Of a stretch of 64,000 bases of DNA, positions 1 through 15,797 are shown piece after piece. The notes under the pieces were generated by a model. That model was not told the origin of the DNA. It saw only the letters and a list, made by a program, of their open reading frames with translations, and made no database searches. Source of the DNA: Arthrobacter sp. SLBN-122. Lineage in GTDB: Bacteria > Actinomycetota > Actinomycetes > Actinomycetales > Micrococcaceae. The position numbers and the translations under genes were made by a program. The first letter of the stretch is position 1. Each line of letters begins with the position of its first letter. The stretch lies in contig NZ_VFMS01000001.1 in NCBI RefSeq assembly GCF_006715165.1, positions 2,852,001 through 2,916,000 of the forward strand. Direction: 5' to 3'.

Positions 1-73
1 AATCGAACTCGCGCTCAAAATCGATGAAGGGGACGCCCTCGGGAACGCTGAGTTTCAGGGAATTGCTCATCAT
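1..73 (-). CDS. SRPBCC/AHSA1-family protein, N-terminal fragment
   Basis: Only the first 24 codons are inside the window; the gene runs off the left edge. On the minus strand an ATGATG pair at 73-68 starts a reading frame beginning MMSNSLKLSVPEGVPF. The first ATG overlaps the stop codon of the upstream ArsR gene as ATGA, so the two are translationally coupled. An ArsR repressor followed by an SRPBCC (START-like, Aha1-type) protein is a very common bacterial pair. The family call rests mostly on that context, because the fragment is too short for domain evidence. SRPBCC proteins bind hydrophobic ligands in a helix-grip cavity; the ligand here is unknown. Start at 73 or 70 is undecided. Confidence 0.55.
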   Translation of the reverse strand, partial: MMSNSLKLSVPEGVPFIDFEREFD

Positions 74-429
74 GACTCCTTGGATGATTCATCGCCGCTG
101 TCCGCGGTGTTTGATTTGAGTACGGCATCCAGGCTGCGGAACTGCCCTTCACGCACCAACCGGTAGCGGTCGATCCATGCGGTCAGCGCCTCAAGCCGCG
201 CCGGGTTCAGGTGGACGGGCCTGCGCTGCGCGTCCCTGCTTCGGGTCACCAGTTCCGCCTGCTCGAGCACCTGGATATGTTTCGAAACCGCCTGCTTGGA
301 GATTTCGAACGGTTCTGCCAATTCGTTCACTGTTGCCGGGCCCCGGCTGAGCCGTGCAATGATGCTCCTTCGCACGGGATCTGCCAAGGCCATGAAGGCC
401 GAGTCCAAGGCCGCACTTTCAGAGTTCAT
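70..429 (-). CDS. ArsR-family winged-helix repressor
   Basis: This is a 119-residue regulator with the whole ArsR/SmtB-type winged helix: ALADPVRRSIIARLSRG (helices 1-2), VNELAEPFEISKQAVSKHIQVLE (the HTH, about residues 33-55), then a wing with RRPVHLNP. It has no metal-binding cysteines, so it belongs to the metal-independent branch that usually pairs with an SRPBCC protein, as here (4-nt overlap with the downstream gene). Upstream, an AACC-TTTC-GGTT inverted repeat at 448-459 could be its autoregulatory operator, but this is a guess. It is divergent from the tautomerase gene at 583. The family is certain; the effector is unknown. Confidence 0.9.
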   Translation of the reverse strand: MNSESAALDSAFMALADPVRRSIIARLSRGPATVNELAEPFEISKQAVSKHIQVLEQAELVTRSRDAQRRPVHLNPARLEALTAWIDRYRLVREGQFRSLDAVLKSNTADSGDESSKES

Positions 430-545
430 CGTTACCCGTTTCTAGCCAACCTTTCGGTTTATCAAGCAGATGATTGTCTAAGGATAGTCCCCTCCATGTG
501 CCGCTTCAAGACCTAAAGCCCTTGTCTCGTGGATTCTCAGTTTGT

Positions 546-565
546 TAGTATGTCAGCACAAACTA
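546..565 (+). promoter_or_regulatory. IolR-like operator over the tautomerase promoter
   Basis: TAGTATGTCAGCACAAACTA is a 20-bp palindrome of the form TAGTnTGTnnnnACAnACTA. It covers the likely -10 box TAGTAT (546-551), which lies 18 nt after a -35-like TTGTCT (522-527). The same core recurs before iolC (1036-1055) and before the second permease (15879-15891). Position over the -10 implies repression. The palindrome is seen directly; assigning it to the GntR protein at 14957 is inference. Confidence 0.75.
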
Positions 566-582
566 TGTGAAGGAGAAGTTCC

Positions 583-987
583 ATGCCATTGGTTCGCATC
601 GACGTTAATGAAGGGCGCAGCGCGGAGGACCTGCAGCAGCTCAGCCGCGGAATCCACGACGCGATCCTTGCCGAGTACGGCATTCCGGAGCGGGACTACT
701 TCCACATCCTGACCGAGCACCCGCAGGGCCAGATATTCGCCCAGGATGCCGGACTGGGGTTTGAGCGCACCGGGGGAGTTGTGATGATCCAGATCTTCAC
801 CCAGGGCGGGCGTTCGCAGGAGGCCAAGCAGCGGCTCTTCGCGGCGGTGGCCGAAAAGCTTGCGGCAGTTGGCGTGGCCGGGGAGGACGTCTTCATTGGC
901 TATGTCGAAAACACGGCCGGTGACTGGTCCTTCGGCTTTGGCCGCGCGCAGTACGTAACGGGCGAATTGGCCGTTCCGAGGAAGTAG
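583..987 (+). CDS. Tautomerase-superfamily protein, MSAD-like
   Basis: This is a 134-residue member of the Tautomerase_2 group, with the catalytic Pro directly after the initiator Met (MPLVRIDVNEGRS). From memory it aligns along its length with Pseudomonas malonate-semialdehyde decarboxylase (MSAD). The shared features are Pro1, the PxxD at 34-37 that supplies MSAD Asp37, a GRS arginine at 76 matching Arg75, and the closing VENTAGDWSFGFGRAQYVTGEL. The MSAD Arg73 position is Gly or Gln here, so decarboxylase activity is not assured; it may be a plain keto-enol tautomerase. An operator identical in core to that of iolC overlaps its promoter, and iolC starts 188 nt downstream. Malonate semialdehyde is made by this same pathway. 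RBS is AAGGAGAAG at 570-578. Family is firm, substrate inferred. Confidence 0.8.
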   Translation: MPLVRIDVNEGRSAEDLQQLSRGIHDAILAEYGIPERDYFHILTEHPQGQIFAQDAGLGFERTGGVVMIQIFTQGGRSQEAKQRLFAAVAEKLAAVGVAGEDVFIGYVENTAGDWSFGFGRAQYVTGELAVPRK

Positions 988-1035: not shown

Positions 1036-1061
1036 AAGTATGTCAGTACAAACTTTTGACA
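1036..1061 (+). promoter_or_regulatory. IolR-like operator and -35 box of the iol operon
   Basis: AAGTATGTCAGTACAAACTT (1036-1055) is a palindrome AAGTnTGTnnnnACAnACTT, and it abuts a perfect -35 TTGACA at 1056-1061. The -10 about 17-18 nt further on is poor (CAAAGT near 1079). The operator core differs by one base from that before the tautomerase. It resembles, from memory, the TGWC...ACA layout of the Corynebacterium glutamicum IolR site. Confidence 0.7.
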
Positions 1062-1175: not shown

Positions 1176-2180
1176 GTGACCCACGAGCTTCTTACGATCG
1201 GGCGCATCAGCGTTGATATCTACCCGAACGACATCGGGGTTGGCCTGGAGGACGTTAATTCCTTCGGCAAATACCTTGGCGGTTCGCCCTCCAACGTCGC
1301 CGTTGCAGCAGCCCGCCACGGACGCCGCACCGGCGTCATCACCCGCACCGGGGATGATCCGTTCGGCACCTACCTGCACCGCGAACTGCACAAGTTCAAC
1401 GTCGATGACACCTACGTCACGCCGGTCAAGGACTGGCCCACCGCGGTGACCTTCTGCGCCATCAAGCCAGCCACGGACGAGTTTCCGCTGTACTTCTACG
1501 GCCGGTTCCCCACCGCGCCGGACCTGCAGATCGAGGCCGGGGAACTGGACCTCGACGCCATCCGCGGAGCCGGGATCTTCTGGTCCACCGTCACGGGCCT
1601 GTGCCAGGAACCCTCCCGCAGCGCCCACATCGCCGCCCACCAGGCCCGTCCCCGCACCGGCCTGGCCGAGGGGCAGTTCACTATCCTGGACCTGGACTAC
1701 CGGCCCATGTTCTGGGCATCGGAAGAGGAGGCCCGCACCGAGGTCGCCAAGATCCTGCCGCACGTTACCGTTGCCATCGGCAACGACAAGGAATGCGCCG
1801 TGGCCGTAGGCGAAGGCACCCCGGATGAGCAGGCAGACCGGCTCCTGGCAGCCGGCGTGGAAATCGCCGTCGTCAAGCTTGGCGCGGAAGGCGTGATGGC
1901 CAAGACCCGCACCGAACGCGTGGTCTCCGCTCCCGTCCCGGTGGAAACCCTGAACGGCCTGGGTGCCGGCGACTCCTTCGGCGGCGCCTTCTGCCACGGG
2001 CTGCTGTCGGGGTGGCCGCTGGCACAGGTCCTGGACTACGCCAACGCCGCCGGCGCCATTGTGGCTTCCCGCCTTTCCTGCGCCGATGCCATGCCGACGC
2101 CGGATGAGGTCACCTCGCTGCTGGCCGAACGCGGCCGCGCGGTTCCCGGCGCCTCGATTCCCGAAGGAGCAGCACTGTGA
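1176..2180 (+). CDS. iolC: 5-dehydro-2-deoxygluconokinase IolC
   Basis: This is a PfkB-family sugar kinase of 334 residues that phosphorylates 2-deoxy-5-keto-D-gluconate to its 6-phosphate. The N-terminal LTIGRISVDIYPND and FGKYLGGSPSNVAVAAARHG are the IolC-type substrate-binding start. The C-terminal LNGLGAGDSFGGAFCHGLL is the PfkB signature with the catalytic Asp of GAGD. I chose the GTG at 1176 because family members begin just before the TIGR strand and AGAAAGG precedes it; an upstream in-frame ATG at 1086 adds 30 residues unlike the family. The next gene overlaps by 4 nt (GTGA). First gene of the main inositol operon. Confidence 0.93.
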   Translation: MTHELLTIGRISVDIYPNDIGVGLEDVNSFGKYLGGSPSNVAVAAARHGRRTGVITRTGDDPFGTYLHRELHKFNVDDTYVTPVKDWPTAVTFCAIKPATDEFPLYFYGRFPTAPDLQIEAGELDLDAIRGAGIFWSTVTGLCQEPSRSAHIAAHQARPRTGLAEGQFTILDLDYRPMFWASEEEARTEVAKILPHVTVAIGNDKECAVAVGEGTPDEQADRLLAAGVEIAVVKLGAEGVMAKTRTERVVSAPVPVETLNGLGAGDSFGGAFCHGLLSGWPLAQVLDYANAAGAIVASRLSCADAMPTPDEVTSLLAERGRAVPGASIPEGAAL

Positions 2181-3115
2181 CCCTCACTCCGTTAGCGTCG
2201 AACAACGCACTGGACGACGATCCGCGCCGCTATGAGCACCTGAGCACCATCCGCCTGGAAGACCCGGATGCCGTGGCCCGTGCCGCCAAGTCCCGCAGGC
2301 GCCACCCCGGCCTGAAGTCGGGCCGGCAGAACTTCATCGTCGCCGCAGACCACCCCGCCCGCGGCGCCCTTGCCGTCGGCAGCGACCCCGTGGCCATGGC
2401 CGACCGGCGTCAGCTACTGGACCGGCTGCAAATCGCCCTGGCCAACCCCGCCGTTGACGGTGTCCTGGCGTCCCCGGACATCATGGACGACCTGCTGCTG
2501 CTGGGCGCCCTGGACGGCAAGCTGGTGTTCGGTTCGATGAACCGCGGCGGCCTGTCCGGGCTGGTCAACGAGTTCGACGACCGCTTCACCGGCCACACCG
2601 CAGCAGCGCTGGAGGCTCTGGGAGCTGACGGTGGCAAGATGCTGACCCGCATCTGCCTGGGCGACCCCGACACCGTGGCCACGCTGGAAGCGACCGCGAA
2701 GGCCATTGATTCGCTGGCGGAGCGGAAGCTGATCGCCATGGTGGAACCGTTCCTCTCTGTCCGCGAGAACGGTAAAGTCCGCAACGACCTGTCCACCAAC
2801 GCCGTGATCAAGTCCATCGCGATCGCCGAAGGCCTGGGTTCCACCAGCGCCTACACCTGGATGAAGCTTCCCGTGGTAGCCGAAATGGAACGCGTCATGG
2901 CCGCCACCACCATGCCCACCGTCCTGCTGGGCGGGGACCCGGACGGCACCCAGGACGAGGTCTTCGCGTCCTGGCAGGCCGCACTGGCTCTGCCCGGCGT
3001 CCAGGGCCTCACGGTTGGCCGGACGCTGCTTTACCCGGCAGACGGGGATGTCGCGGGCGCCGTCGCCAGCGCCGCCTCGCTGCTGCACCACACCACTGAA
3101 ATCCCGGAGAACTAG
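2177..3115 (+). CDS. Cgl0159-family aldolase (probable IolJ role)
   Basis: This is a 312-residue (beta/alpha)8 protein of the Cgl0159 type, the aldolase-like gene found beside iolC in actinobacterial inositol clusters. It should split 2-deoxy-5-keto-gluconate 6-phosphate into dihydroxyacetone phosphate and malonate semialdehyde. Sequence features include VAADHPARG near the N-terminus, DGVLASPDIMDDLLLLG, and YTWMKLPVV, whose lysine (about residue 232) is a candidate Schiff-base residue. It is not similar to class II IolJ of Bacillus, so the role comes from family context and from the absence of any other aldolase in the cluster. The start GTG overlaps the iolC stop. Likely co-translated with IolC, whose product it would use. 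Confidence 0.75.
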   Translation: MTLTPLASNNALDDDPRRYEHLSTIRLEDPDAVARAAKSRRRHPGLKSGRQNFIVAADHPARGALAVGSDPVAMADRRQLLDRLQIALANPAVDGVLASPDIMDDLLLLGALDGKLVFGSMNRGGLSGLVNEFDDRFTGHTAAALEALGADGGKMLTRICLGDPDTVATLEATAKAIDSLAERKLIAMVEPFLSVRENGKVRNDLSTNAVIKSIAIAEGLGSTSAYTWMKLPVVAEMERVMAATTMPTVLLGGDPDGTQDEVFASWQAALALPGVQGLTVGRTLLYPADGDVAGAVASAASLLHHTTEIPEN

Positions 3116-3117
3116 CC

Positions 3118-5097
3118 ATGGGCACAACAACAGGAACGCGCAGGATGACGGTGGCGCAGGCCGTCGTCGAATACCTTTCCAAGCAGTACACGGTTGACTC
3201 GGTCAACGGCGTTGAGTACCGCGAACGGCTCATTCCGGGCACGTTCGGTATTTTCGGGCACGGCAACGTGGCCGGTGTGGGCCAGGCCCTGAAGCAGTAC
3301 CAACAGCTGGACCCGGCCATCATGCCGTACTACCAGGGCCGGAACGAGCAGGCCCAGGTCCACCAGGCCGTCGGGTACGCCCGGCACACCCGCCGCCGCC
3401 AGACGTTCGCGGTCAGCACCTCGATCGGCCCGGGCTCCTCGAACCTGCTGACCGGTGCCGCGCTGGCCACGACCAACCGGCTTCCGGTGCTGCTGCTGCC
3501 GAGTGACACGTTCGCCACCCGAGCTGCAGACCCCGTGCTGCAGCAGCTGGAACAGCCCTACGCCTACGACCTCACGGTCAACGACGCGTTCCGGCCGCTG
3601 TCCAAGTTCTTCGACCGCGTCACCCGCCCCGAGCAGCTGTTCTCCGCGTTCCACCACGGCCTGCGGGTCCTCACCGACCCTGCCGAGACCGGTGCCGTGA
3701 CCATCTCGCTGCCGCAGGACGTCCAGGCCGAGGCCTTCGACGTCCCGGCGGAATTCCTGGCCGAGCGCGAGTGGCGGATCCGCCGCCCGGAGGCTGACGA
3801 TGACGACATTGCCCGCGCCGCGGCCGCTATCCGGGCTGCCAAGCGCCCGCTGATCATCGCCGGCGGCGGCGTCCTTTACGCCTATGCCAATGACGAACTC
3901 GCGAAGTTCGTGGAGCTGACCGGCATCCCGGTGGGCAACACCCAGGCCGGCGTCGGCGTCCTGCCCTGGGACCACCAGCACTCACTGGGTGCCATCGGCT
4001 CCACAGGCACGACGGCGGCCAACGCCATCGCAGCTGAGGCGGACCTGATCATCGGCATCGGCACGCGCTACGAGGACTTCACCACCGCGTCCCGGACCGC
4101 CTTCCAGAACCCTGACGTGCGCTTCATTAACGTCAACGTGGCCCCGATCGATGCCTACAAGCACGGCACCACGCTCCCGATCGTGGCCGATGCCCGCAAG
4201 GCACTGGTGAAGCTCAACGCAGCACTGGGCGGCTACCGGGTAGGCGCCGACCTGGAACAGAAGGTCGCGGCCGAGAAGAAGCGCTGGAACGACACGGTGG
4301 ACGAGGCGTTCGACACCCGCTACACCCCGCTGCCCGCCCAGAATGAGATCATCGGCGCCACCAACCGGGCCATGGACCCGCGCGACGTTGTCATCTGCGC
4401 GGCCGGGTCCCTGCCCGGGGACCTGCACAAGATGTGGCGCGTCCGGGACCCGTTCGGCTACCACGTCGAATACGCCTACTCCTGCATGGGCTACGAGATC
4501 CCCGGCGGCCTGGGCGTCAAGCGTGCAGCGCTTGCAGAAGCGGCGGAAAGTACGACGGCGGGCGGCGAGGGCCGCGCTGACGTCCGTGACGTCGTCGTCA
4601 TGGTGGGGGACGGCTCCTATCTGATGATGCACACCGAACTGGTCACCGCCGTCGCCGAACGCATCAAGCTGATCGTGGTCCTGATCCAGAACCACGGCTA
4701 CGCCTCCATCGGCTCCCTCTCCGAATCCCTCGGCTCACAGCGGTTCGGCACCCAGTACCGGGCATTGAACGAGGAACAGCACAGCTTCGACGAAGGCGAG
4801 ACCCTGCCCGTGGACCTGGCCCTGAACGCCGAGTCCCTGGGCGTGAAGGTCATCCGGATCGAGCCGGGGGAGAAGGTCATCGCCGAACTTGAGCAGGCCA
4901 TCCGCGATGCCAAGGCCGCTCCCGAGCGCAGCGGACCCATCCTGATCCACGTCGAATCCGACCCGCTGCTGGACGCACCGTCCTCCGAGTCCTGGTGGGA
5001 CGTCCCCGTCTCCCAGGTCTCCGAACTCGACTCCACCAAGCAGGCCTTCCAGACCTACGTCGACCACAAGTCACGCCAGCGCAAACTGCTCGGCTGA
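3118..5097 (+). CDS. iolD: 3D-(3,5/4)-trihydroxycyclohexane-1,2-dione hydrolase IolD
   Basis: This is a 659-residue thiamine-diphosphate enzyme that opens the ring of the cyclic dione to 5-deoxy-D-glucuronate. The three-domain acetohydroxyacid-synthase fold is visible. The N-terminal PYR domain has GTFGIFGHGNVAGVG and the glutamate-containing YYQGRNEQAQVH. The middle Rossmann domain has PLIIAGGGVLYAYA. The C-terminal PP domain has VVMVGDGSYLMMHTELVTA and ends the diphosphate motif in NHGYASIGSL. The length and the QGRNEQ segment distinguish IolD from acetolactate synthase. ATG at 3118 follows the previous stop by 2 nt. It acts after IolE and before IolB, which in this genome lies in a separate operon at 14046. 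Confidence 0.95.
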   Translation: MGTTTGTRRMTVAQAVVEYLSKQYTVDSVNGVEYRERLIPGTFGIFGHGNVAGVGQALKQYQQLDPAIMPYYQGRNEQAQVHQAVGYARHTRRRQTFAVSTSIGPGSSNLLTGAALATTNRLPVLLLPSDTFATRAADPVLQQLEQPYAYDLTVNDAFRPLSKFFDRVTRPEQLFSAFHHGLRVLTDPAETGAVTISLPQDVQAEAFDVPAEFLAEREWRIRRPEADDDDIARAAAAIRAAKRPLIIAGGGVLYAYANDELAKFVELTGIPVGNTQAGVGVLPWDHQHSLGAIGSTGTTAANAIAAEADLIIGIGTRYEDFTTASRTAFQNPDVRFINVNVAPIDAYKHGTTLPIVADARKALVKLNAALGGYRVGADLEQKVAAEKKRWNDTVDEAFDTRYTPLPAQNEIIGATNRAMDPRDVVICAAGSLPGDLHKMWRVRDPFGYHVEYAYSCMGYEIPGGLGVKRAALAEAAESTTAGGEGRADVRDVVVMVGDGSYLMMHTELVTAVAERIKLIVVLIQNHGYASIGSLSESLGSQRFGTQYRALNEEQHSFDEGETLPVDLALNAESLGVKVIRIEPGEKVIAELEQAIRDAKAAPERSGPILIHVESDPLLDAPSSESWWDVPVSQVSELDSTKQAFQTYVDHKSRQRKLLG

Positions 5098-5138: not shown

Positions 5139-6650
5139 ATGACTGCCACCACCACTGAAACTGTCATCAACCACTTCATCAACGGCGCGGAGACCGCCGG
5201 CGAGGGTGAGCGCACCACCCCCGTATACAACCCCGCCACCGGTGCCGTGTCCGCCACGCTGCGCCTGGCCAACCGTGCCGACCTTGAGGCCACTGTCGCG
5301 GCCGCCCGCAAGGCCGCCGATACTTGGGGGGACATCTCCCTGGCCAAGCGCACCGCGGTGCTGTTCAAATTCCGCGAACTGGTCGCCTCCCACGTCGAGG
5401 AGCTGGCGCAGCTGGTCACGGCCGAGCATGGCAAGGTCATCTCCGACGCCAAGGGCGAAATCGGCCGTGGCCTGGAAGTCATCGAGTACGCCTGCGGCAT
5501 CCCCACGCTGCTCAAGGGCGACTACTCGGACCAGGTCTCCACCGGCATCGATGTGTTCAACTTCCGCGAACCCCTCGGTGTGGTGGCCGGCATCACCCCG
5601 TTCAATTTCCCGGTGATGGTGCCGCTGTGGATGGCGCCGATGGCGATCGCCACCGGCAACGCGTTCATCCTCAAGCCCTCCGAACGCGACCCCTCAGCCT
5701 CGCTGCTGCTGGCCAAGCTCTGGAAGGAAGCCGGCCTGCCCGATGGCGTGTTCCAGGTCCTGCACGGCGACAAGGAAACCGTGGACGGCCTGCTGACCCA
5801 CCCGGATGTGGACGGCATCTCCTTCGTCGGGTCCACCCCGATCGCCCAGTACGTCCACGAGACCGCCACCAAGCACGGCAAGCGGGTCCAGGCCCTGGGC
5901 GGGGCGAAGAACCACGCCATCGTGATGCCCGACGCCGACCTGGACAACACCGCCGACCACCTCGCCGCCGCCGCCTTCGGTTCCGCCGGTGAACGCTGCA
6001 TGGCGATCTCCGTCGCCGTGGCCGTCGGGGACGCAGCCGACCTCATCGTCAAGAAGGTCGAAGAGCGCGCCCTGGCCGTCAAGGTCAAGAACGGTACCGA
6101 ACCCGACGCCGAAATGGGTCCGGTCATCACCCCGGCCTCCAAGGAACGAATCGTACGGATCGTCACCGAAGCCGAAGCTGCCGGCGCCGCCATGGTGGTG
6201 GACGGCCGCGACCTGGTGGTCCCTGGCCACGAAGACGGCTTCTGGGTAGGCCCCACCGTGATCGACCACGTCAAGACCGAAATGACGGCCTACACCGAAG
6301 AAATCTTCGGGCCGGTCCTCGTTGTGGTCCGCGTTGACACCCTCGAAGACGGCATCAGGCTGATCAACGCCAACCCCTACGGCAACGGCACCGCCATCTT
6401 TACCTCCTCCGGTGCCGCCGCGCGCAAGTTCCAGCGCTCCGTGACCGTCGGCATGATCGGCATCAACGTGCCCCTGCCCGTCCCGGTGGCCTACCACTCC
6501 TTCGGCGGCTGGAAGGCATCCCTCTTCGGTGACAAGCACATCTATGGCCCCGAAGGCGTATCCTTCTACACCCGCGGCAAGGTGGTCACCTCCCGCTGGC
6601 CCGAAACCCACCACGCCTCCGGCGCCTCCTACAACTTCCCCTCCAACTGA
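5139..6650 (+). CDS. iolA: Methylmalonate-semialdehyde dehydrogenase (acylating) IolA
   Basis: This is a 503-residue aldehyde dehydrogenase that converts (methyl)malonate semialdehyde, CoA and NAD+ to acetyl-CoA or propionyl-CoA with loss of CO2. MMSDH hallmarks are present: GITPFNFPVMVPLWM, FVGSTPIAQYVHETA, the catalytic cysteine in FGSAGERCMAISVAV (about 288), and EEIFGPVL. The start at 5139 has AAGGAAGAG 5 nt upstream and gives the family N-terminus; the open frame extends back to 4995 inside iolD but has no comparable signal. It drains the toxic semialdehyde made by the aldolase at 2177. A compound inverted repeat starts 16 nt after its stop and precedes iolE. Confidence 0.95.
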   Translation: MTATTTETVINHFINGAETAGEGERTTPVYNPATGAVSATLRLANRADLEATVAAARKAADTWGDISLAKRTAVLFKFRELVASHVEELAQLVTAEHGKVISDAKGEIGRGLEVIEYACGIPTLLKGDYSDQVSTGIDVFNFREPLGVVAGITPFNFPVMVPLWMAPMAIATGNAFILKPSERDPSASLLLAKLWKEAGLPDGVFQVLHGDKETVDGLLTHPDVDGISFVGSTPIAQYVHETATKHGKRVQALGGAKNHAIVMPDADLDNTADHLAAAAFGSAGERCMAISVAVAVGDAADLIVKKVEERALAVKVKNGTEPDAEMGPVITPASKERIVRIVTEAEAAGAAMVVDGRDLVVPGHEDGFWVGPTVIDHVKTEMTAYTEEIFGPVLVVVRVDTLEDGIRLINANPYGNGTAIFTSSGAAARKFQRSVTVGMIGINVPLPVPVAYHSFGGWKASLFGDKHIYGPEGVSFYTRGKVVTSRWPETHHASGASYNFPSN

Positions 6651-6742: not shown

Positions 6743-7654
6743 ATGACTGAGAACAAGCTGATCATCGGCACGGCGCCGGACTCCTGGGGCGTCTGGTTCG
6801 CAGACGATCCCAAGCAGACCCCGTGGGAACGGTTCCTCGACGAAGTGGCCGAGTCCGGCTATAAGTGGATCGAGCTGGGCCCGTACGGTTACCTTCCGAA
6901 CGATCCCACGCGCTTGGCGGAGGAACTCAAGCAGCGCGACCTCAAGGTCACCGCCGGTACCGTGTTCACTGCCTTCCACCGCGGGCTGGACCAGTGGGAA
7001 ACCGCCTGGGAGCCGGCCCGCAAGGTGGCCGAGCTCACCGCGGCCATGGGCGGCGAGCACATCGTGGTCATCCCGGCCATGTGGCGCGACGACGTCACCG
7101 GCGAAGCCGTGGAAAGCGGTACGCTGAGCGAGAAGGCCTGGAGCGACCTGTTCGCCGGCCACAACCGTCTGGGCAAGACCCTGCTGGAGGACTTCGGCCT
7201 CAAGCAGCAGTTCCACTCCCACGCCGACTCCCACGTCGGCGCGCAGCAGGACATCGAAACGCTGCTGGCCGCCACTGACCCGCAGTACCTGAACCTCTGC
7301 CTCGACACGGGGCACGCCGAGTACTGCGGCGCCTCCAGCCTGGACCTGATCAAGAACTACCCGGACCGGATCGGCTACCTGCACCTGAAGCAGATCAACC
7401 CGGACATCCTCAAGAAGGTCAACGAGGAAAACATGACCTGGGCCGCGGCCAACCTGGCCGGCGTCATGACCGAACCGCCCAACGGCCTGCCAGACCTGCG
7501 CGCGGTCATCGAAGCCGTGGAAGCCCTGAACCGGCCGATCTTCGGCATCGTGGAGCAGGACATGTATCCGGTGGCCTTCGACGTGCCGATGCCCATCGCC
7601 AAGCGCACCCGCAATTACCTGCTGTCCTGCGGCTCCCGCACAGCCGTAAGCTAA
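6743..7654 (+). CDS. iolE: Probable myo-inosose-2 dehydratase IolE
   Basis: This is a 303-residue xylose-isomerase-like TIM barrel starting IIGTAPDSWGVWFADDP. Metal-site residues typical of the fold are visible: KWIELGPYGYLP, HIVVIPAMW, QFHSHADSHVG, LCLDTGHAEYCG, GYLHLKQ and IVEQDMY. The expected reaction is dehydration of 2-keto-myo-inositol to the cyclic dione used by IolD. Two TIM-barrel proteins of this superfamily lie in the operon (this and 8771). I assign IolE here because the other has the IolH-type start MKIALDPTPFHH and no other dehydratase is present. An IolI-type isomerase is the alternative. ATG at 6743 has AAGGA 8 nt upstream. Confidence 0.75.
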   Translation: MTENKLIIGTAPDSWGVWFADDPKQTPWERFLDEVAESGYKWIELGPYGYLPNDPTRLAEELKQRDLKVTAGTVFTAFHRGLDQWETAWEPARKVAELTAAMGGEHIVVIPAMWRDDVTGEAVESGTLSEKAWSDLFAGHNRLGKTLLEDFGLKQQFHSHADSHVGAQQDIETLLAATDPQYLNLCLDTGHAEYCGASSLDLIKNYPDRIGYLHLKQINPDILKKVNEENMTWAAANLAGVMTEPPNGLPDLRAVIEAVEALNRPIFGIVEQDMYPVAFDVPMPIAKRTRNYLLSCGSRTAVS

Positions 7655-7683: not shown

Positions 7684-8697
7684 ATGACTGAAAACCTCCG
7701 CGTCGCCGTCATCGGCGCAGGCCGCATGGGTGCGGACCACATCCAGCGCCTCAACAAGCGCATCCACGGAGCTGAAGTTGCCGCCGTCGTCGACGTCGAC
7801 CTCGCCCGCGCCCAGGCCGCCATCGAAGGCATCCCCGGCGCCGTGGCCCTGGGCGACGCAGACGAAGCCCTGAAGAATGGCGACGTCAACGCGGTCCTGA
7901 TCGCCACCCCCGGCTTCCTGCACGAGGACATCCTGCTCAAGGCGATCGCCAAGGACATCCCGATCCTCTGCGAAAAGCCGCTCACCCCGGACGCCGAGTC
8001 CTCCTGGAAGATCGTCCAGGCAGAGGTGGCGCTGGGCCACAAGCGGATCCAGGTGGGCTTCATGCGCCGCTTCGACGCCGAATATGCCTCGCTGGGCAAG
8101 ATCATCCGCGACCACGAGCTGGGTGAACTGCTGATGCTGCACCACCAGCACCGCAACCCGAGCACCCCCGAGGGCTTCACGAATGAGATGCTCATCAACG
8201 ACTCCGTGGTCCACGAGTTCGACGCCATCCGGTTCTTCACCGGCGAGGAAATCACCAGCATCCAGGTCCGCCTGGGCAAGGCCACCCGGAACGCCCCGAA
8301 TGGCCAGCACGACCCCCAGCACGTCCTGCTGGAGACCGAATCGGGCGTCCTGGCCGATGTTGAAATCTACGTCAACGCCAAGTTCGGCTACGAGGTTGCC
8401 ACCCAGGCCTCCTTCGAGGACGGCATCGTCAGCATCGGCGGCGACAAGGGACCCTACACCCGCAGCGCCGGCCACTGGGGCGGCAATGTCACCCCCGGCT
8501 TCGAGGAGCGCTTTGGCGCAGCGTACGACGTCGAAATCCAGTCGTGGGTGGACGCGGCACTTAAGGGCGAAATCGGTGGCCCCTCCGCCTGGGACGGGTA
8601 CGCCACCGCAGCGTGCTGCGAAGCAGGCGTCGAAGCGCAGAAGAACGGCGAAAAGGTCGCCGTGAAGCTGGCCGCAAAACCCGACCTCTACAAGTAG
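7684..8697 (+). CDS. iolG: Gfo/Idh/MocA oxidoreductase, inositol 2-dehydrogenase IolG
   Basis: This is a 337-residue NAD-dependent dehydrogenase that oxidises myo-inositol to 2-keto-myo-inositol, the first committed step. The N-terminal Rossmann segment VAVIGAGRMGADHIQRL binds the cofactor, CEKPLTPD carries the family EKP lysine (about 99), and VGFMRRFDAEYASL and NDSVVHEFDAIRFF give the catalytic Asp/His region of inositol dehydrogenases. Length is normal for IolG. It sits between iolE and iolH and is followed by a strong hairpin, so it may end one transcript segment. Other polyols could be substrates; the location in the cluster supports inositol. Confidence 0.9.
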   Translation: MTENLRVAVIGAGRMGADHIQRLNKRIHGAEVAAVVDVDLARAQAAIEGIPGAVALGDADEALKNGDVNAVLIATPGFLHEDILLKAIAKDIPILCEKPLTPDAESSWKIVQAEVALGHKRIQVGFMRRFDAEYASLGKIIRDHELGELLMLHHQHRNPSTPEGFTNEMLINDSVVHEFDAIRFFTGEEITSIQVRLGKATRNAPNGQHDPQHVLLETESGVLADVEIYVNAKFGYEVATQASFEDGIVSIGGDKGPYTRSAGHWGGNVTPGFEERFGAAYDVEIQSWVDAALKGEIGGPSAWDGYATAACCEAGVEAQKNGEKVAVKLAAKPDLYK

Positions 8698-8734: not shown

Positions 8735-8770
8735 CCATTCCCCTGACTGATCCACAATGGAGTGTTTTTC

Positions 8771-9646
8771 GTGAAAATCGCACTTGACCCCACCCCGTTC
8801 CACCACTCGCACAGCCTGCTGGAGTTCCCCAAGGCGGTGGCGGACCTTGGCTACAAGTACATGCAGATGACCCCGCACGCGGACTTCATCCCTTTCTTCA
8901 ACCACCCCAAAGCGGATGATGAACTGGTGGGCCAGCTGAAGAAGGCCTGCCGCGACGCCGGAATCGAGATCGCTTCCGTCCTGCCGGTGCTCCGCTGGTC
9001 GGGCCCCGACGAGGATGCACGCGAAGCAGCCGTCCGCTACTGGAAGCGTGCCATCCAGATCACCGTGGACCTGGGCGTCAGCACCATGAACACGGAGTTC
9101 AGCGGCCGGCCGGAAAAGGCGGAGGAGTCCGAGCGGGCGTTCTACCGTTCCATGGAGGAACTGCTGCCCATCATCGAGCGTGAGGGCATCGACCTGCTGA
9201 TCGACCCCCACCCCGACGACTTCGTGGAAGAGGGTCTTGCCGCCATCCGCGTGATCCGCGGCGTTAACTCGAAGAATGTGGGCATGGTCTACGTGGCCTC
9301 ACACAGCTTCCACATGAAGAACTCGCCGCTGGACATTATGAGGGCCGCGGGGGACAAGCTGCGCCTGGTCCACGTGGCCGACACCATGGACCACCACGCG
9401 TCCCACGGCCTGCGGTACATCACCAACCCGCCGGGCAACCCCGTCCGCGTTCACCAGCACTTGAAGATCGGCGACGGCGACGTCAACTGGGACGAGTTCT
9501 TCGGCGGCCTGAAGGAGATCGGCTTCCTGGACCGGGAGAATACTGTGACGGTCTCCAGCGTCTTTGCCGAAAACGAACATGCCGAGGAGGTCTCCCGCTA
9601 CCAACTGGAGACCATGAAGCAGTACGTCCAAAAGGTCACCGTATGA
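8771..9646 (+). CDS. iolH: IolH-like sugar-phosphate isomerase/epimerase family protein
   Basis: This is a 291-residue TIM-barrel protein of the AP-endonuclease-2 superfamily. It begins MKIALDPTPFHHSHS, the start seen in actinobacterial IolH. Candidate metal ligands are in STMNTEFSGRP, LLIDPHPDDFVEE, SHSFHM and VHVADTMDHHASHG. The precise reaction of IolH proteins is not settled; epimerisation or isomerisation of inosose-like compounds is plausible. I chose GTG at 8771, which matches the family start and has ATGGAG upstream; a GTG at 8762 would add three residues. Its stop overlaps the permease start by 4 nt (ATGA). Confidence 0.8.
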   Translation: MKIALDPTPFHHSHSLLEFPKAVADLGYKYMQMTPHADFIPFFNHPKADDELVGQLKKACRDAGIEIASVLPVLRWSGPDEDAREAAVRYWKRAIQITVDLGVSTMNTEFSGRPEKAEESERAFYRSMEELLPIIEREGIDLLIDPHPDDFVEEGLAAIRVIRGVNSKNVGMVYVASHSFHMKNSPLDIMRAAGDKLRLVHVADTMDHHASHGLRYITNPPGNPVRVHQHLKIGDGDVNWDEFFGGLKEIGFLDRENTVTVSSVFAENEHAEEVSRYQLETMKQYVQKVTV

Positions 9647-11082
9647 GTTCGCCTGTTTCCGGTGAAGCAGCCGCAAAGCAGCCCGGCAACCACCAGCGCG
9701 CGCTGCGGACCGTCACCATCATCTCCACGTTCGGCGGGCTGCTGTTCGGCTACGACACCGGCGTGATCAACGGCGCCCTGCCGTACATGCAGGAAGACCT
9801 GGGCCTCACGCCGCTGACCGAGGGCCTGGTCACCTCGTCCCTGCTGTTCGGTGCCGCCTTTGGCGCCCTATTCGGCGGACGCCTGGCGGACCGCAACGGC
9901 CGGCGCAAGATGATCATGGTGCTGGCCATCGTCTTCCTGCTGGGCACGCTGGGCTGCACGTTTGCACCCAGCACCGAAGTGATGATCGCCGCCCGGTTCG
10001 TCCTGGGGCTCGCGGTGGGCGGTGCATCTGTCACGGTTCCCGTGTACCTGGCAGAGGTATCGCCAAGCAACCGGCGCGGCCGGATCGTCACGCAGAACGA
10101 GCTCATGATCGTCACCGGTCAGCTACTCGCCTTCATCTTCAACGCCTACCTGGGCAACTCGTTCGGCGAGTCCCACGGAATCTGGCGCTGGATGCTGGTC
10201 ATCGCCACCCTGCCGGCCATCGCACTCTGGATCGGGATGAACTTCATGCCCGAGAGCCCCCGCTGGCTGGCCTCCATTGGCAGCTTCGGCGAGACCCTCA
10301 GCGTGCTGCAGCGGATCCGGTCGCAGGAGGAAGCGCGGAGGGAGTTCGAAGAAGTCAAAGCCATGGCGGTGGAGGACTACAAGTCCAAGATGGGCTCCTG
10401 GAAGGACCTGGGCATCCCATGGCTCCGCAGGATCTTCTTCGTGGGCCTGGGCCTTGCGGTGATCCAGCAGATCACCGGCGTGAACTCGATCATGTACTAC
10501 GGAACGCAGATCCTGTCGCAGTCCGGCTTCGGCCGGGAGGCGGCGTTGACCGCCAACATCGCCAACGGCGCCATCTCGGTCCTGGCCACGTTCGTCGGGA
10601 TCTGGCTGCTGGGCAAGGTGGGCCGGCGCAGGATGCTCATCACCGGCCAGGTGGGAACCACGACGGCGCTGCTGCTCATTGGCCTCTTCTCCCTGATCCT
10701 GCCCGAAGGGTCAGCACGAGGATTCGTCATCCTGTCGCTCACCGTGACGTTCCTGGCCTTCCAGCAGGGTGCCATCTCCCCGGTGACATGGCTGATGCTC
10801 TCGGAGATCTTCCCGTTGAAGATCCGTGGTCTGGGCATGGGCGCCTCCGCGTTCCTGCTGTGGATTGTGAACTTCCTGATCGGCTTCGGGTTCCCGCAGC
10901 TGCTGGCGGCCATCGGGATCTCCAACACGTTCTTCGTGTTCGCCGTGCTGGGTGTTGGCGCCATCGCCTTTGCCGCCAGGTACGTGCCCGAGACCAAGGA
11001 CAAGAGCCTTGAGGACCTGGAGCACTACTTCAAGAACGTGGCCGGCAGCAAAGCTGAGGCGGCCGCGGCAAAGGCTTCCTGA
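9643..11082 (+). CDS. iolT: MFS sugar-porter permease, probable inositol transporter
   Basis: This is a 479-residue, 12-helix transporter of the sugar-porter family. Signature elements are FGGLLFGYDTGVINGALPYM (helix 1), GGRLADRNGRRKM (loop 2-3), VPVYLAEVSPSNRRGRIVTQNELMIVTGQ (helices 4-5), MPESPRWL, VIQQITGVNSIMYYG (helix 7) and VPETKDKSLEDLE at the end. It should import myo-inositol by proton symport. Overlap with iolH and position as last gene of the catabolic operon support that substrate. The C-terminus is a short Ala/Lys tail. A paralogue with the same motifs lies at 15996. Confidence 0.85.
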   Translation: MSSPVSGEAAAKQPGNHQRALRTVTIISTFGGLLFGYDTGVINGALPYMQEDLGLTPLTEGLVTSSLLFGAAFGALFGGRLADRNGRRKMIMVLAIVFLLGTLGCTFAPSTEVMIAARFVLGLAVGGASVTVPVYLAEVSPSNRRGRIVTQNELMIVTGQLLAFIFNAYLGNSFGESHGIWRWMLVIATLPAIALWIGMNFMPESPRWLASIGSFGETLSVLQRIRSQEEARREFEEVKAMAVEDYKSKMGSWKDLGIPWLRRIFFVGLGLAVIQQITGVNSIMYYGTQILSQSGFGREAALTANIANGAISVLATFVGIWLLGKVGRRRMLITGQVGTTTALLLIGLFSLILPEGSARGFVILSLTVTFLAFQQGAISPVTWLMLSEIFPLKIRGLGMGASAFLLWIVNFLIGFGFPQLLAAIGISNTFFVFAVLGVGAIAFAARYVPETKDKSLEDLEHYFKNVAGSKAEAAAAKAS

Positions 11083-11780: not shown

Positions 11781-12986
11781 ATGCCTGTTGGCCTGATCAC
11801 ACTCGCCCTTGGCGGGTTTGGCATAGGACTCACTGAATTCGTCATCGCGGGCCTCCTGCCGCAGGTGGCGGCCGACTTTGGCGTCACCGAAGCGGAGGCC
11901 GGCTGGTTCATTTCCGGCTACGCGCTCTCCGTGGTGGTGGGCGCGTTGGGCCTCACGGCCGCCGTGACGCGCTTCCAGCGCAAGCCGGTCCTGGCCGCCC
12001 TGTTGGTCCTGTTCATCGCCGGAAACCTGCTCTCCGCCACGGCGGACGGTTACTGGTCCATGATGCTGGGCCGGGTTGTTGCCGCCCTCTCGCACGGCGC
12101 CTTCTTCGGAATCGGAGCCGTGGTGGCTGCCGGTATGGTCCCGCCGAGCAAGAAGGCAGGAGCCATCGCGCTCATGTTCACCGGACTGACCGCAGCCAAC
12201 GTCCTGGGCGTGCCGTTCGGGACGCTGCTGGGCCAGGCCGCCGGCTGGCGTGCCACCTTCTGGGCCATCACTGTCATCGGCGTGGCCGCGCTCGCCGGGA
12301 TCCTGGCGCTCGTTCCCAAGGCGGCGGGTGAAGCGGAAGAGGCAGCCAGCCTCCGCACCGAGCTCCGCGCCTTCCGCTCCGGCCAGGTGTGGCTTTCCAT
12401 CGTGGTGACCATCCTGGGCTTCGGCGGCATGTTCGGCGCGTTCACCTACATCGCGTACGCCCTGACCGAAGTCTCCGGGTTCGCGGCGTCCACCGTGCCG
12501 TGGCTGCTCATCGTCTTCGGCGCCGGCCTCTTCGCGGGCAACACCCTGGGCGGCAAGGCCGCAGACCGCAACGTGGACCGGACGCTCCTGGTGGTGCTCG
12601 CCGCGCTGGCCGTGGTCATGGTGGCATTCGCCCTGACCGCCGCCAACCCCGTCCTGACAATCGTGTCCCTGGTCCTCATGGGAGGCTTCGGCTTCGCCAC
12701 CGTGCCGGGACTGCAGATGCGCGTGATGAAGTACGCCTCCGGGGCTCCCACCCTGGCCTCCGGCGCCAACATCGGTGCCTTCAACGTGGGCAACGCCCTG
12801 GGCGCGTGGCTGGGCGGGGTCACCATTACTGCCGGCCTCGGCTACACGTCACCCATCTGGGCCGGCGCGGTGATTACCCTTGCAGGCCTGGCGGTCATGG
12901 CGTTCGCCGCCGCAGGCGCCAGGCGGAAGGAGCAGCGCCGGGAGGGCCAGGCGCCAGCGGCCGTGGTGGAGTTGGCCAGCCGCTAG
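11781..12986 (+). CDS. MFS exporter, DHA1/AraJ-like
   Basis: This is a 401-residue, 12-helix MFS permease resembling Cmx/AraJ drug-efflux proteins. The first helix has FGIGLTEFVIAGLLPQVAADF and helix 4-5 has GRVVAALSHGAFFGIGAVVAAGMV, both typical of this subfamily. A central loop is rich in Glu/Ala, and the C-terminal tail RRKEQRREGQAP is basic. It is probably an antiporter for small hydrophobic compounds or sugars. Divergent MarR control supports a stress or drug-export role. Its stop codon overlaps that of the convergent lacI gene (CTAG at 12983-12986). Confidence 0.82.
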   Translation: MPVGLITLALGGFGIGLTEFVIAGLLPQVAADFGVTEAEAGWFISGYALSVVVGALGLTAAVTRFQRKPVLAALLVLFIAGNLLSATADGYWSMMLGRVVAALSHGAFFGIGAVVAAGMVPPSKKAGAIALMFTGLTAANVLGVPFGTLLGQAAGWRATFWAITVIGVAALAGILALVPKAAGEAEEAASLRTELRAFRSGQVWLSIVVTILGFGGMFGAFTYIAYALTEVSGFAASTVPWLLIVFGAGLFAGNTLGGKAADRNVDRTLLVVLAALAVVMVAFALTAANPVLTIVSLVLMGGFGFATVPGLQMRVMKYASGAPTLASGANIGAFNVGNALGAWLGGVTITAGLGYTSPIWAGAVITLAGLAVMAFAAAGARRKEQRREGQAPAAVVELASR

Positions 12987-13999
12987 GCAGTGGGGCCGGA
13001 GGAGCGGCGCACCATCAGGGCGGGTTCGAGTTTCCGGGTGGTGGCCGGTCCTGCCGTACCCGCGATCCTGTCCAGCATGGCTTGTGCGGCCAGGCGGCCC
13101 AGCTGGCCGGCGTGCTGGTCAATGGACGTCAGGCCAATCAGGGGGGAGGCCGCCACTTCGATGTTGTCGCAGCCGACGATTGCCACGTCGCCCGGGACGG
13201 ACAGTCCGTGCGACGCCAGGGCCTCCATGATTCCGATGGCGGTGAGGTCGTTGTGCGCAAAGACTGCCGTGGGGAGGATGCCGCCCGAGTCCAGGAACTG
13301 CTCCATCACGGCCCGGCCGCCGCGTTCGGTCATGTCGCTGTGGACCAGCTGGGGCTCCAGGCCGAACTGCCCCATGGCGTGCAGGTAGCCTTCCCGCCTG
13401 GCGGTGTAGGGGAGCCAGTCCGAGATGTCCACGTGTGCAATCCGCCGGTGCCCCAGTCCGTACAGGTGCTCCACGGCAAGTGCTCCGGAACGGAAGTCGT
13501 CCGTCAAGACGGAATCCACGCCGTCGACCTCCATCTCCCGGGTGATGACGACGGCGGGTGTTCCGCGCAGTGCCGCAGCCAGCTCTGCCGAGGTGCCCGT
13601 GTAGCCGGCCAGGAGGACACCGTCCACGCGCAGGTCCACGAAGGACCGGACGGCCTCCAGTTCCGTTCCCGGATCAGCGGAGCCGACGGCGACCATCACC
13701 TGGTTGCCGCTTCCCGCCAGGCCTTCGGTGATGCCGTCATAGATGTCCGCGAAGACCGAGTTGTGCAGGTCGAGGAAGAGGACTCCGATGGTGTTGGTCC
13801 GGTGGCTGGCCAACCGGCTGGCCAGCCTGTTGGGGGAGTAGCCCAGGGCGGCGGCTGCTTCCAGCACGGCCGTCCGCTTGGCGGGAGAAACCTTTGGGGA
13901 ATCCCGCATCACCAGGGACACCAGGGCGCGGCTCACTCCGGCGTCCCGTGCCACATCCTCCATGGTCACGGACCGCGGCGCAGGAGATGTCTGTTTCAC
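12983..13999 (-). CDS. LacI-family transcriptional regulator
   Basis: This is a 338-residue LacI/GalR repressor. The N-terminal HTH VTMEDVARDAGVSRALVSLVMRD (about 11-33) and hinge NRLASRLASHRTNTIGVL are followed by a periplasmic-binding-protein-like ligand domain with GVLLAG, AVFAHNDLTAIG, VAIVGCDN and LTSIDQ. It starts with GTG 46 nt after the iolB stop, so it is probably third in the gntR-iolB-lacI transcript. A perfect 18-bp LacI-type palindrome overlaps the promoter of the permease at 15996, and this is the only LacI protein in the window. That makes it the likely regulator; the effector is presumably inositol or a related sugar. Confidence 0.92.
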   Translation of the reverse strand: MKQTSPAPRSVTMEDVARDAGVSRALVSLVMRDSPKVSPAKRTAVLEAAAALGYSPNRLASRLASHRTNTIGVLFLDLHNSVFADIYDGITEGLAGSGNQVMVAVGSADPGTELEAVRSFVDLRVDGVLLAGYTGTSAELAAALRGTPAVVITREMEVDGVDSVLTDDFRSGALAVEHLYGLGHRRIAHVDISDWLPYTARREGYLHAMGQFGLEPQLVHSDMTERGGRAVMEQFLDSGGILPTAVFAHNDLTAIGIMEALASHGLSVPGDVAIVGCDNIEVAASPLIGLTSIDQHAGQLGRLAAQAMLDRIAGTAGPATTRKLEPALMVRRSSGPTA

Positions 14000-14045: not shown

Positions 14046-14939
14046 TTACGAGCCGAACGGCAGCCGCGGGTCGATGTTCTGGCTCTCCCAGGTCTGCCGC
14101 ACCCAGCCGTGGTGCGGATCGTCGCTGATCAGCCACTCCCGCACGGGGCCGGGGCCGGCCATGACATTCAGGTAGTACATGTCGTAGCCGGGCGCGGCCA
14201 TGGCGGGACCGTGCCAGCCATAGGGAACCAGGACGACGTCGCCGGTGCGCACTTCCGCCGAAACATCGATGGGGCGCTCGTCCGAGGCGTAGACGCGCTG
14301 GTAGCCGATGGCGTCGGCGTCGGAGGGGGCGCCTGATCCTGCGGCTGCCTGCGTCTCGAAGTAGTAGATCTCTTCGAGGGAGGTCTCGCCGTCCTTCTCC
14401 TCATCATGCTTGTGCGGCGGGTAGGAGGACCAGTTCCCGGCAGGGGTGAGGACCTCGCACACAATGAAGCGGTCCGCCTCGAGTGCTGCAGGTGTACCGA
14501 AGTTGTGGACCTGGCGTGAGCAGTTGCCGGCGCCGCGCAGTTCCACCGGTGTTTCGGCCGCCGTCACGAGCCGGGTGGGGTAAGCGGCCTTGGCGGGTGC
14601 CGTGGCCACGGCGACGCGGCCGCCGTCGGCCGAGCTGATGCTCACGGCACGGCCCGTGCCTGAGTAGAGCACGTCGGAGGGCCCGGAAAACACCGAGGGC
14701 CGGCCGTTCAACGGATAGTTGGTGCCGTCAACGGTGACGGTGAAGGACCCGTTGAGGGGCACCACGATCCGTTCCTCGTCCGCGGCGGGGAGTTCGACGG
14801 CGGCGCCGGCAGGCACGCTGGCCACCTTCAGGCCGGTGTGTGCCCAGCCGTCCACGGTGAAGGAGGAATCGGAAGTTCCGATTGAGACGTCCCATTTGCT
14901 GTCGGCGGCAGTGCCCAGGGGGTAGACCCAGTTGGTCAT
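14046..14939 (-). CDS. iolB: 5-deoxy-glucuronate isomerase IolB
   Basis: This is a 297-residue bicupin isomerase converting 5-deoxy-D-glucuronate to 2-deoxy-5-keto-D-gluconate, the IolC substrate. Diagnostic features are GNCSRQVHNFGTP, the metal site SSYPPHKHDEEKDGETSLEEIYYFE (two His and Glu), and VLVPYGWHGPAMAAPGYDMYYLNVMAGP near the C-terminus. It is split from the other catabolic genes and instead follows gntR by 17 nt on the minus strand. The pathway is still complete within the window. Lower start: GGAG precedes the ATG at 14939. Confidence 0.95.
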   Translation of the reverse strand: MTNWVYPLGTAADSKWDVSIGTSDSSFTVDGWAHTGLKVASVPAGAAVELPAADEERIVVPLNGSFTVTVDGTNYPLNGRPSVFSGPSDVLYSGTGRAVSISSADGGRVAVATAPAKAAYPTRLVTAAETPVELRGAGNCSRQVHNFGTPAALEADRFIVCEVLTPAGNWSSYPPHKHDEEKDGETSLEEIYYFETQAAAGSGAPSDADAIGYQRVYASDERPIDVSAEVRTGDVVLVPYGWHGPAMAAPGYDMYYLNVMAGPGPVREWLISDDPHHGWVRQTWESQNIDPRLPFGS

Positions 14940-14956: not shown

Positions 14957-15697
14957 TTATCGCTGTACGAGTGTCATTTCAAAGCTGTAGGAATCGGCGC
15001 GGTACACATGGTGGCCCGTTTCCACCCGGCGCCCGGTATCGTCCACGGCGGTGCGTTCCATGGTGACCAGCGCCGATCCTGCCGGGGTGTCCAGCATGGA
15101 GGCCTGGTAGTCATTGGCCGTCATGGCGCCGATGCGTTGCGTGGCCAGCCGGAAGTTCACGCCGCCGCGGCGGAGGATCGAGTACAGGCCCTCGGCACCC
15201 AGCATCGCCTCGTCCATCTCGGCGATGTCGTCGCGAACCCAGTTCTCCATCAGGGCGAGCGGTTTGCCGCCCACTTTCCGCAGTCGAGTGAAGTGGTACA
15301 CCTTGGAGCCCGCGGGAAGCTGGAGCGTGGCCAGCGTGGGGTCGTCCGCTTCCAGGTGCGAGAAGCTCAGGACTTCCGTGGTGGGTTTCTTGCCGTTGTT
15401 GGTGAGGTCGTCGTAGAGGCTGGACAGTTCGAGTGGCCGGCGCACCTGGCTGGAGACCACCTGCGTTCCCACGCCCCGTTTGCGCACCAGCAGGCCGGAG
15501 CGGACCAGCTCGTCCATGGCCTTGCGCATGGTGGGCCGGGAAAGGTTCAGCTGGGCGGCAAGGTCGATTTCGTTGTCCAGCCGGCTGCCCGGTTCAAGCA
15601 CGCCACTGTAGATCGCAGCCTCGATGCCCTGAACCACCTGATGGTACAACGGCACGGGGGAGGAGCGGTCGATGCTGAGTCCCAGGTTGTTCGCCAC
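14957..15697 (-). CDS. GntR/UTRA-family regulator, iolR-like
   Basis: This is a GntR repressor of 246 residues. The DNA-binding half has PLYHQVVQGIEAAIYSGVLEPGSRLDNEIDLAAQLNLSRPTMRKAMDELVRSGLLVRKRGVGTQV (about 16-80). The ligand half is a UTRA domain with KVYHFTRLR, LPLMENWV-like and VTMERTAVDDTGRRVE segments. I chose GTG at 15697, which has GAGGAAA 6 nt upstream; an ATG at 15712 has no visible RBS and would add five residues. It leads the gntR-iolB-lacI transcript. IolR of Corynebacterium is also GntR-type. The TGTCAGYACA palindromes near inositol genes are its likely sites. Confidence 0.88.
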   Translation of the reverse strand: MANNLGLSIDRSSPVPLYHQVVQGIEAAIYSGVLEPGSRLDNEIDLAAQLNLSRPTMRKAMDELVRSGLLVRKRGVGTQVVSSQVRRPLELSSLYDDLTNNGKKPTTEVLSFSHLEADDPTLATLQLPAGSKVYHFTRLRKVGGKPLALMENWVRDDIAEMDEAMLGAEGLYSILRRGGVNFRLATQRIGAMTANDYQASMLDTPAGSALVTMERTAVDDTGRRVETGHHVYRADSYSFEMTLVQR

Positions 15698-15775
15698 AGT
15701 GCATTTCCTCATACGTCGGTGTCAGCACCTTGATCTGCTCTCGACGCCGGCGCTGGCGGGCCTCTTCGGCACTTA

Positions 15776-15797
15776 TATGTCCGCTTGATAGGACATA
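15776..15797 (-). promoter_or_regulatory. Inverted TATGTCC repeat upstream of gntR
   Basis: TATGTCC (15776-15782) and GGACATA (15791-15797) are perfect inverted copies 8 nt apart, 79 nt upstream of the gntR start. Read on the minus strand the site begins AAAGTATGTCC, sharing AAGTATGTC with the operator before iolC. This suggests autoregulation through a variant site. Confidence 0.6.

Follow-up and report, generated by a model that had tools for sequence, protein, structure and literature searches.

The window analysed here is a 64,000-nucleotide stretch of the genome of Arthrobacter sp. SLBN-122, and all coordinates refer to it. It contains a cluster of inositol (iol) genes, and upstream of iolC, on the same strand, lies a gene for a homologue of the malonate semialdehyde decarboxylase (MSAD) of coryneform bacterium FG41. 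The genes and sites of this region are listed below, with the basis of each assignment in brackets.

70..429, minus strand: ArsR-family regulator, divergent from the MSAD gene (metalloregulator HTH subfamily, above cut-off)
522..551, plus strand: possible promoter TTGTCT-18 nt-TAGTAT, the second hexamer overlapping the operator (by eye)
550..562, plus strand: operator core ATGTCAGCACAAA before the MSAD gene (sequence match, conservation)
583..987, plus strand: FG41-type MSAD homologue, 134 aa (Pfam, solved-structure match)
1040..1052, plus strand: operator core ATGTCAGTACAAA, one change from ATGTCAGCACAAA, before iolC (sequence match, conservation)
1176..2180, plus strand: iolC, 5-dehydro-2-deoxygluconokinase (TIGR04382 above cut-off; GTG start at 1176, open reading frame from 1173)
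2177..3115, plus strand: Cgl0159-like aldolase (PF22649, 3.3e-119; the solved relative 3fok is named uncharacterized Cgl0159)
3118..5097, plus strand: iolD, THcHDO hydrolase (TIGR04377 above cut-off)
5139..6650, plus strand: iolA/mmsA, CoA-acylating (methyl)malonate-semialdehyde dehydrogenase (TIGR01722 above cut-off; solved relatives)
6743..7654, plus strand: iolE-like inosose dehydratase (TIGR04379 at 139 bits, below the cut-off of 290; PF01261; start by eye)
7684..8697, plus strand: iolG-like inositol dehydrogenase (NF052679 at 306 bits, below the cut-off of 540; Pfam GFO_IDH_MocA)
8762..9646, plus strand: sugar isomerase/epimerase-like protein, AP_endonuc_2 (PF01261)
9643..11082, plus strand: first inositol-type sugar permease (TIGR00879 above cut-off; substrate inferred)
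12983..13999: LacI-family gene
14046..14939, minus strand: iolB, 5-deoxy-glucuronate isomerase (TIGR04378 above cut-off)
14957..15712, minus strand: GntR/UTRA regulator, candidate repressor (PF00392, PF07702)
15879..15891, minus strand: third operator core, exactly ATGTCAGCACAAA, in the intergenic region of the GntR and second permease genes (sequence match)
15996..17414, plus strand: second inositol-type sugar permease (TIGR00879 above cut-off; substrate inferred)

From its position, the Cgl0159-like aldolase is presumed to be the source of malonate semialdehyde. An ArsR-family gene is also a neighbour of the iol cluster in several relatives, whether or not these have an MSAD gene.

The product of the open reading frame at 583 begins with MPLVRID and matched the Pfam families PF14552 (Tautomerase_2, 2.5e-30) and PF01361 (Tautomerase, 2.2e-16), both well above cut-off. 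The nearest solved structure was FG41 MSAD (3mjz, E 2.3e-45, query residues 2 to 133 without gaps), to which the protein is 56% identical; the second solved relative was the enzyme of Pseudomonas pavonaceae, with 33% identity. A predicted model with a mean pLDDT of 83.7, weak beyond about residue 110, had the beta-alpha-beta tautomerase fold and lay near the solved MSADs. In the fold comparison 3mlc was the top match (TM 0.86/0.89), and 3mlc and 3mjz were the closest structures, at 56% identity. Assignment as a 4-oxalocrotonate tautomerase (2-hydroxymuconate tautomerase) was rejected, all five NCBIfam matches being under cut-off and the best reaching 36 bits against the 103 required.

Numbered without the initial Met, the active site comprises Pro1, Asp37, Thr72, Gln73, Arg76 and Tyr123. 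The initial annotation had pointed to Pro1, Asp37 and Arg76 as counterparts of catalytic residues. All three are present, but a catalytic part for Arg76 is doubtful, as a 2013 study of FG41 MSAD reportedly placed this residue too far away for direct action. It had also been stated that Arg73 is lost. The residue is indeed absent, and instead of the Arg73/Arg75 pair of the Pseudomonas (Pp) subtype the protein has Gln73 and Arg76; the interpretation as a loss did not hold, however, since Gln73 is a signature of the FG41 subtype. Thr72, Gln73 and Tyr123, which had been overlooked, stand where the Pp subtype has its arginine pair, and because the protein has these residues together with Arg76 the absent Arg73 is a mark of the FG41 subtype. 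The alignment further revealed a one-residue insertion before Arg76, which we take to be another trait of this subtype. The P. pavonaceae enzyme (2aag) belongs to the same family and has the DWSFG wall, Pro1 and Asp37 in common with the window protein, but differs from it by the arginine pair. In the available text of PMC10606566, Arg73 and Arg75 are described as the residues used by Pseudomonas MSAD, and Thr72, Gln73, Arg76 and Tyr123 as their substitutes in FG41 MSAD.

Among the 66 proteins with an aligned start and at least 60% identity to the window MSAD, Pro1, Asp37, Thr72, Gln73, Gly75, Arg76, Trp114, Phe116, Tyr123 and Leu128 were invariant (66/66). The median dN/dS of the MSAD gene was 0.083, calculated from the 225 usable of 300 sampled pairs with dS near saturation. 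A decarboxylase-type active site is thus supported by sequence, residues and predicted fold. No second PF01361 protein was found in the SLBN-122 genome at E 0.01. CaaD-type dehalogenases presumably belong to the PF01361 family, so the genome has no CaaD-type enzyme of that family, and a 3-chloroacrylate/dichloropropene cassette with such a dehalogenase was ruled out.

The initial annotation had placed the gene at 583 under an operator whose core recurs before the second permease gene and, with one change, before iolC, and all three sites were confirmed at the positions listed above. The third site lies in the divergent intergenic region between the GntR and permease genes and may therefore serve either of them. 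With up to two mismatches the core occurred four times in the window, against a mean of 0.72 per dinucleotide shuffle (n = 100), one shuffle also reaching four. In the whole 4.47-Mb genome TGTCAGNACAAA was found exactly at three sites, all inside the iol cluster, and the backwards-pattern control at one; a longer form of the operator with one mismatch allowed gave two further sites elsewhere in the genome.

The sites were conserved in related genomes. After duplicate loci had been merged and proteins without an aligned start excluded, the operator with at most one mismatch was found before the MSAD gene in 61 of 66 distinct loci (MSAD identity at least 60%), between positions -41 and -27 relative to the MSAD start, with one exception at -69. 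A second operator, again with at most one mismatch, was present in the gap between the MSAD gene and iolC in 59 of the 63 distinct loci with iolC just downstream. As a control, 2,120 single-base-shuffled upstream regions were scanned on both strands, and one of them came within one mismatch of the operator. The five misses before the MSAD gene were L061, L062, L063, L093 and L122, the last being an iolC-linked gene (genome G058). Close MSAD copies located away from iolC kept an operator-like site in L090 (G133; one mismatch) and L093 (G021; two mismatches), but not in L063 (G091), where the best site had three mismatches. Beyond the near family the operator stood directly before the MSAD gene in only 1 of 21 distinct loci, and MSAD may share another promoter there. 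At two loci the MSAD gene is gone and an operator-like site persists, at about -394 from iolC without mismatches (L089) and at about -307 with two mismatches (L092); these sites are apparent remnants of the MSAD promoter. A promoter scan before the MSAD gene of the window, with a threshold of 9 of 12 matches, found none.

The protein acting at these operators is probably the GntR/UTRA protein of the cluster, as a repressor. Homologues with 47 to 55% identity were present in the iol clusters of families f11, f17 and f14. In the 18-kb stretches L061 and L062 of family f1 no GntR homologue was found, and a LacI homologue was present instead. The LacI-family protein of the window is an alternative candidate regulator; the GntR protein was preferred because a separate LacI-like palindrome stands before the second permease gene. 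The binding motif of the GntR-type regulator IolR of Corynebacterium glutamicum, which we take to be KGWCHTRACA, agrees with the operator, read as its reverse complement, at nine of ten positions by manual count. According to the accessible part of PMC8634428, IolR keeps the inositol transporter gene iolT1 repressed, and myo-inositol relieves this repression. The LacI-like palindrome, CGTTAGAGCGCTCTAACG, is perfect over 18 bp and spans positions 15915 to 15932. Another inverted repeat, TATGTCC-N8-GGACATA, lies at 15776 to 15797 before the GntR gene; it is akin to the operator half-sites and is a possible autoregulatory site.

Co-occurrence of the MSAD gene with iol clusters in relatives, a check proposed along with the initial annotation, was determined in 150 genomes of the genus. 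An MSAD match was present in 129 of them and iolC in 134. In 126 of the 129 genomes the match, partial in a few cases, preceded iolC in the same orientation at a distance of 105 to 502 bp. Every one of the 128 genomes whose MSAD match reached 60% identity had iolC, and 16 genomes had neither gene. As 6 of the 134 iolC-bearing genomes have no MSAD match, the gene is dispensable. A Fisher test of the association gave p 5e-17, uncorrected for relatedness.

Across the order (396 genomes) iolC was present in 39 of the 41 genomes with an MSAD of at least 40% identity, compared with 154 of 396 overall, and in 29 of 31 such genomes when the genus itself was left out. There were 51 MSAD matches in the order, of which 29 lay in the orientation of iolC and no more than 0.6 kb from it, and 7 more within 25 kb. 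Twelve were far from iolC or on another contig, eight of these with less than 40% identity, and three were in genomes without iolC. Around three of the 12 distant genes (G196, G240 and G309) no iolC was found in the surrounding 18, 13.6 and 6 kb, respectively, two of these stretches being whole contigs. The MSAD-iolC pair was also present on a plasmid of Pseudarthrobacter psychrotolerans. Taken together, linkage and operator conservation strongly support that the MSAD gene is a member of the iol regulon, as had been proposed from the window.

The arrangement of the clusters varied. In family f11 the order was MSAD-iolC-aldolase-iolB-iolG, with iolD-iolA-iolE divergent. In genome G503 (L074) the order was iolC-aldolase-iolB-iolG-iolA-MSAD, the MSAD gene following iolA after 16 bp, and on the Clavibacter plasmid pCI3 MSAD was the last gene of the iol run and adjoined a GntR gene. 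In five genomes of family f14 (L140, L154, L155, L156 and L158) the iol genes all run in one direction; MSAD closes the run, and iolA is missing from the stretch between iolC and MSAD. The only iolA homologue found at E 1e-80 in the f14 genomes with a clustered MSAD lay on a different contig or at a large distance.

The iol aldolase yields malonate semialdehyde, which IolA converts to acetyl-CoA at the expense of NAD+ and CoA. We consider it likely that the window gene encodes an FG41-type MSAD of the inositol regulon which diverts malonate semialdehyde to acetaldehyde alongside IolA. Family, residues, linkage and operator conservation were observed directly, and from these we infer the substrate, the induction, the repressor and the purpose. 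A repressor, probably the GntR/UTRA protein of the cluster, would bind the TGTC-AG-NACA operator where the MSAD transcript begins, and the twin site would put the iolC operon under the same repressor. Inositol or a product of inositol would then free both operators. By homology, Pro1, Asp37, Thr72, Gln73 and Tyr123 of MSAD would cleave surplus malonate semialdehyde to acetaldehyde and CO2 without a cofactor. MSAD could in this way act next to IolA as an outlet for overflow or for detoxification, easing a toxic or cofactor-limited step.

The relationship between MSAD and IolA was examined in the genus. A match to iolA at E 1e-250 or better was present in 127 of the 134 iolC-bearing genomes, not in every case placed in the cluster. 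Of the other seven, G029, G131, G092 and G128 carry a fragmented iolA at the locus, and G017, G129 and G139 (loci L086, L099 and L100) have no iolA between iolD and iolE. In these last three genomes MSAD is absent, interrupted or truncated, compared with 7 of the 130 remaining iolC-bearing genomes without an intact MSAD (8 of 131 when G005, in which a contig end cuts the gene, is included). The co-loss of both genes gave p 3e-4, with relatedness not removed, and argues that in the genus MSAD goes along with IolA rather than replacing it.

These data bear on the possibility that MSAD replaces IolA at the end of the pathway, with malonate semialdehyde passing via acetaldehyde to acetate. The five f14 clusters with MSAD and without a clustered iolA would fit such a role, but the f14 genomes with a clustered MSAD retain an iolA homologue elsewhere. 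The cluster of the window has its own iolA, most of the iolC-bearing genomes of the genus have an iolA match, and four of the seven exceptions carry the gene in pieces. Because G017, G129 and G139, whose clusters have no iolA, are also without an intact MSAD, a simple substitution was rejected as the main explanation, and we regard it as highly improbable. It is also unlikely that MSAD, though co-regulated with the iol genes, acts mainly as a tautomerase or isomerase on another substrate, such as the cyclic dione or a compound of the 5-deoxyglucuronate/2-deoxy-5-keto-gluconate stage. Tautomerases with Pro1 are chemically promiscuous in general, and in most clusters MSAD is linked to iolC and not to iolA. 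Against this stand the full active-site set of FG41 MSAD, invariant in all 66 close relatives, and the MSAD gene of G503 that follows iolA after 16 bp. Moreover, MSADs of a different subtype are found beside iol clusters of Bacillota, which indicates a shared substrate. Nothing in the present data spoke for tautomerisation of a dione, the other role offered in the initial annotation.

MSAD could instead serve another source of malonate semialdehyde (catabolism of beta-alanine, uracil, propionate or 3-chloroacrylate), in which case the position next to iolC would be historical and the use of the operator incidental. MSADs do occur in many non-iol contexts, and FG41 MSAD itself is known from the 1,3-dichloropropene pathway. 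Such an independent role nevertheless appears improbable for the window gene, considering that its own operator was kept in 61 of 66 close loci and operator-like sites at two of the three close copies found away from iolC, that iolC accompanied MSAD beyond the genus in 29 of 31 genomes, and that its genome has no other PF01361 protein. Drainage of malonate semialdehyde beside IolA is therefore preferred to these alternatives.

For comparison with more distant enzymes, a Pseudomonas-like (Pp-like) set was compiled from the best 80 of at least 578 confirmed loci. In eight of the 80, all from Bacillota, a strong iol core gene was present no more than 9 kb away or before the contig end, and eight had an iolA/mmsA-like gene; three loci belonged to both groups. 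No Lacticaseibacillus title was among these best 80 loci. At L167, L170 and L175, Pseudomonas MSAD genes lie directly 3' of an iolA/mmsA-like gene, with no iol cluster.

The MSAD tree contained 58 hand-chosen sequences, including 27 of the best 80 Pp-like loci (all eight iol-linked ones and 19 chosen from the others). Proteins could be extracted from 77 of the 80 loci, and the Frigoribacterium sequence L160 was left out of the trees by the length limit. Sequences of family f14 were labelled as iol on the basis of a proximity of 10 to 22 kb. FG41 MSAD (3mjz, 3mlc, 4lho, 4lhp) shares the active-site set of the window MSAD, has the closest fold and falls into the same clade, which had a support of 100/98 and contained ten iol-linked and two non-linked sequences. 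Within it, FG41 MSAD paired weakly (93/59) with a non-iol sequence from a Streptomyces plasmid, and the ten iol-linked sequences formed a subclade of their own (98/86) that did not include FG41 MSAD. The MSADs beside iol clusters of Bacillota fell on the Pp-type side of the tree and not with FG41 MSAD. Well-supported branches forced at least seven changes of the iol label.

FG41 MSAD is an enzyme of the 1,3-dichloropropene pathway, whereas the window MSAD belongs to the iol regulon. Many actinobacterial iol pathways may have a built-in, inositol-induced MSAD branch that vents malonate semialdehyde to acetaldehyde and CO2; the iol pathway would then be the natural home of FG41-type MSAD, from which the 1,3-dichloropropene pathway recruited its enzyme, and the link to iol genes would have arisen several times with different subtypes. 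This wider scheme is conceivable and is put forward tentatively. As FG41 MSAD branches outside the subclade composed entirely of iol-linked sequences, an inositol origin of the dichloropropene-pathway enzyme is suggested rather than established by the tree.

To our knowledge, the FG41 subtype is familiar only from the degradation of a man-made nematicide. The window gene offers a likely physiological role for this subtype, which is otherwise tied to nematicide breakdown, and a testable source for the last enzyme of the 1,3-dichloropropene pathway. It would also give a very common sugar-alcohol pathway an additional branch point, at one of its reactive intermediates.

It had been assumed at the outset that no tautomerase has been described as part of the iol pathway. 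This assumption was contradicted by IolK of Lactobacillus casei: the accessible part of PMC2530867 locates iolK in the iol operon, and that of PMC10606566 lists IolK among the MSADs, so an MSAD of the tautomerase superfamily encoded in an inositol operon was already known. IolK of L. casei BL23 resembles the window protein, by description only, in being an MSAD-family member encoded with iol genes, but its host belongs to the Bacillota, whereas the window MSAD is actinobacterial. The similar cases in Bacillota suggest that users of inositol have repeatedly had to deal with malonate semialdehyde. An actinobacterial FG41-type MSAD with an operator in an iol cluster was not described among the literature matches listed, which consisted of titles and the beginnings of abstracts and covered little of the subscription literature. 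A word search in the main text of an iol survey (PMC9430895) gave neither 'tautomerase' nor 'decarboxylase', and the available portions of PMC5818174 and PMC5789663 drew no link between a tautomerase and inositol. The widespread actinobacterial FG41-type MSAD with its own operator thus looks new. In Bacillus subtilis, the accessible text of PMC11656851 reports lowered expression of yodA, 'similar to malonate semialdehyde decarboxylase', and the iol genes were lowered too.

Related MSADs were also found outside iol clusters on plasmids of Frigoribacterium and Streptomyces. No iol genes were found near the MSAD genes of L064, L065, L067, L073, L077 and L133 to L139, of which L064, L067 and L133 end at contig ends. 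The MSAD-like gene of the Frigoribacterium plasmid (L160:9001-9387) has a stop 14 residues past the start of the match, and the record annotates a later start. In G091 (L063:4494-9175), an FG41-type MSAD gene follows a ROK-type regulator gene away from the iol cluster of that genome, and its neighbours were named by eye as xylose isomerase and xylulokinase.
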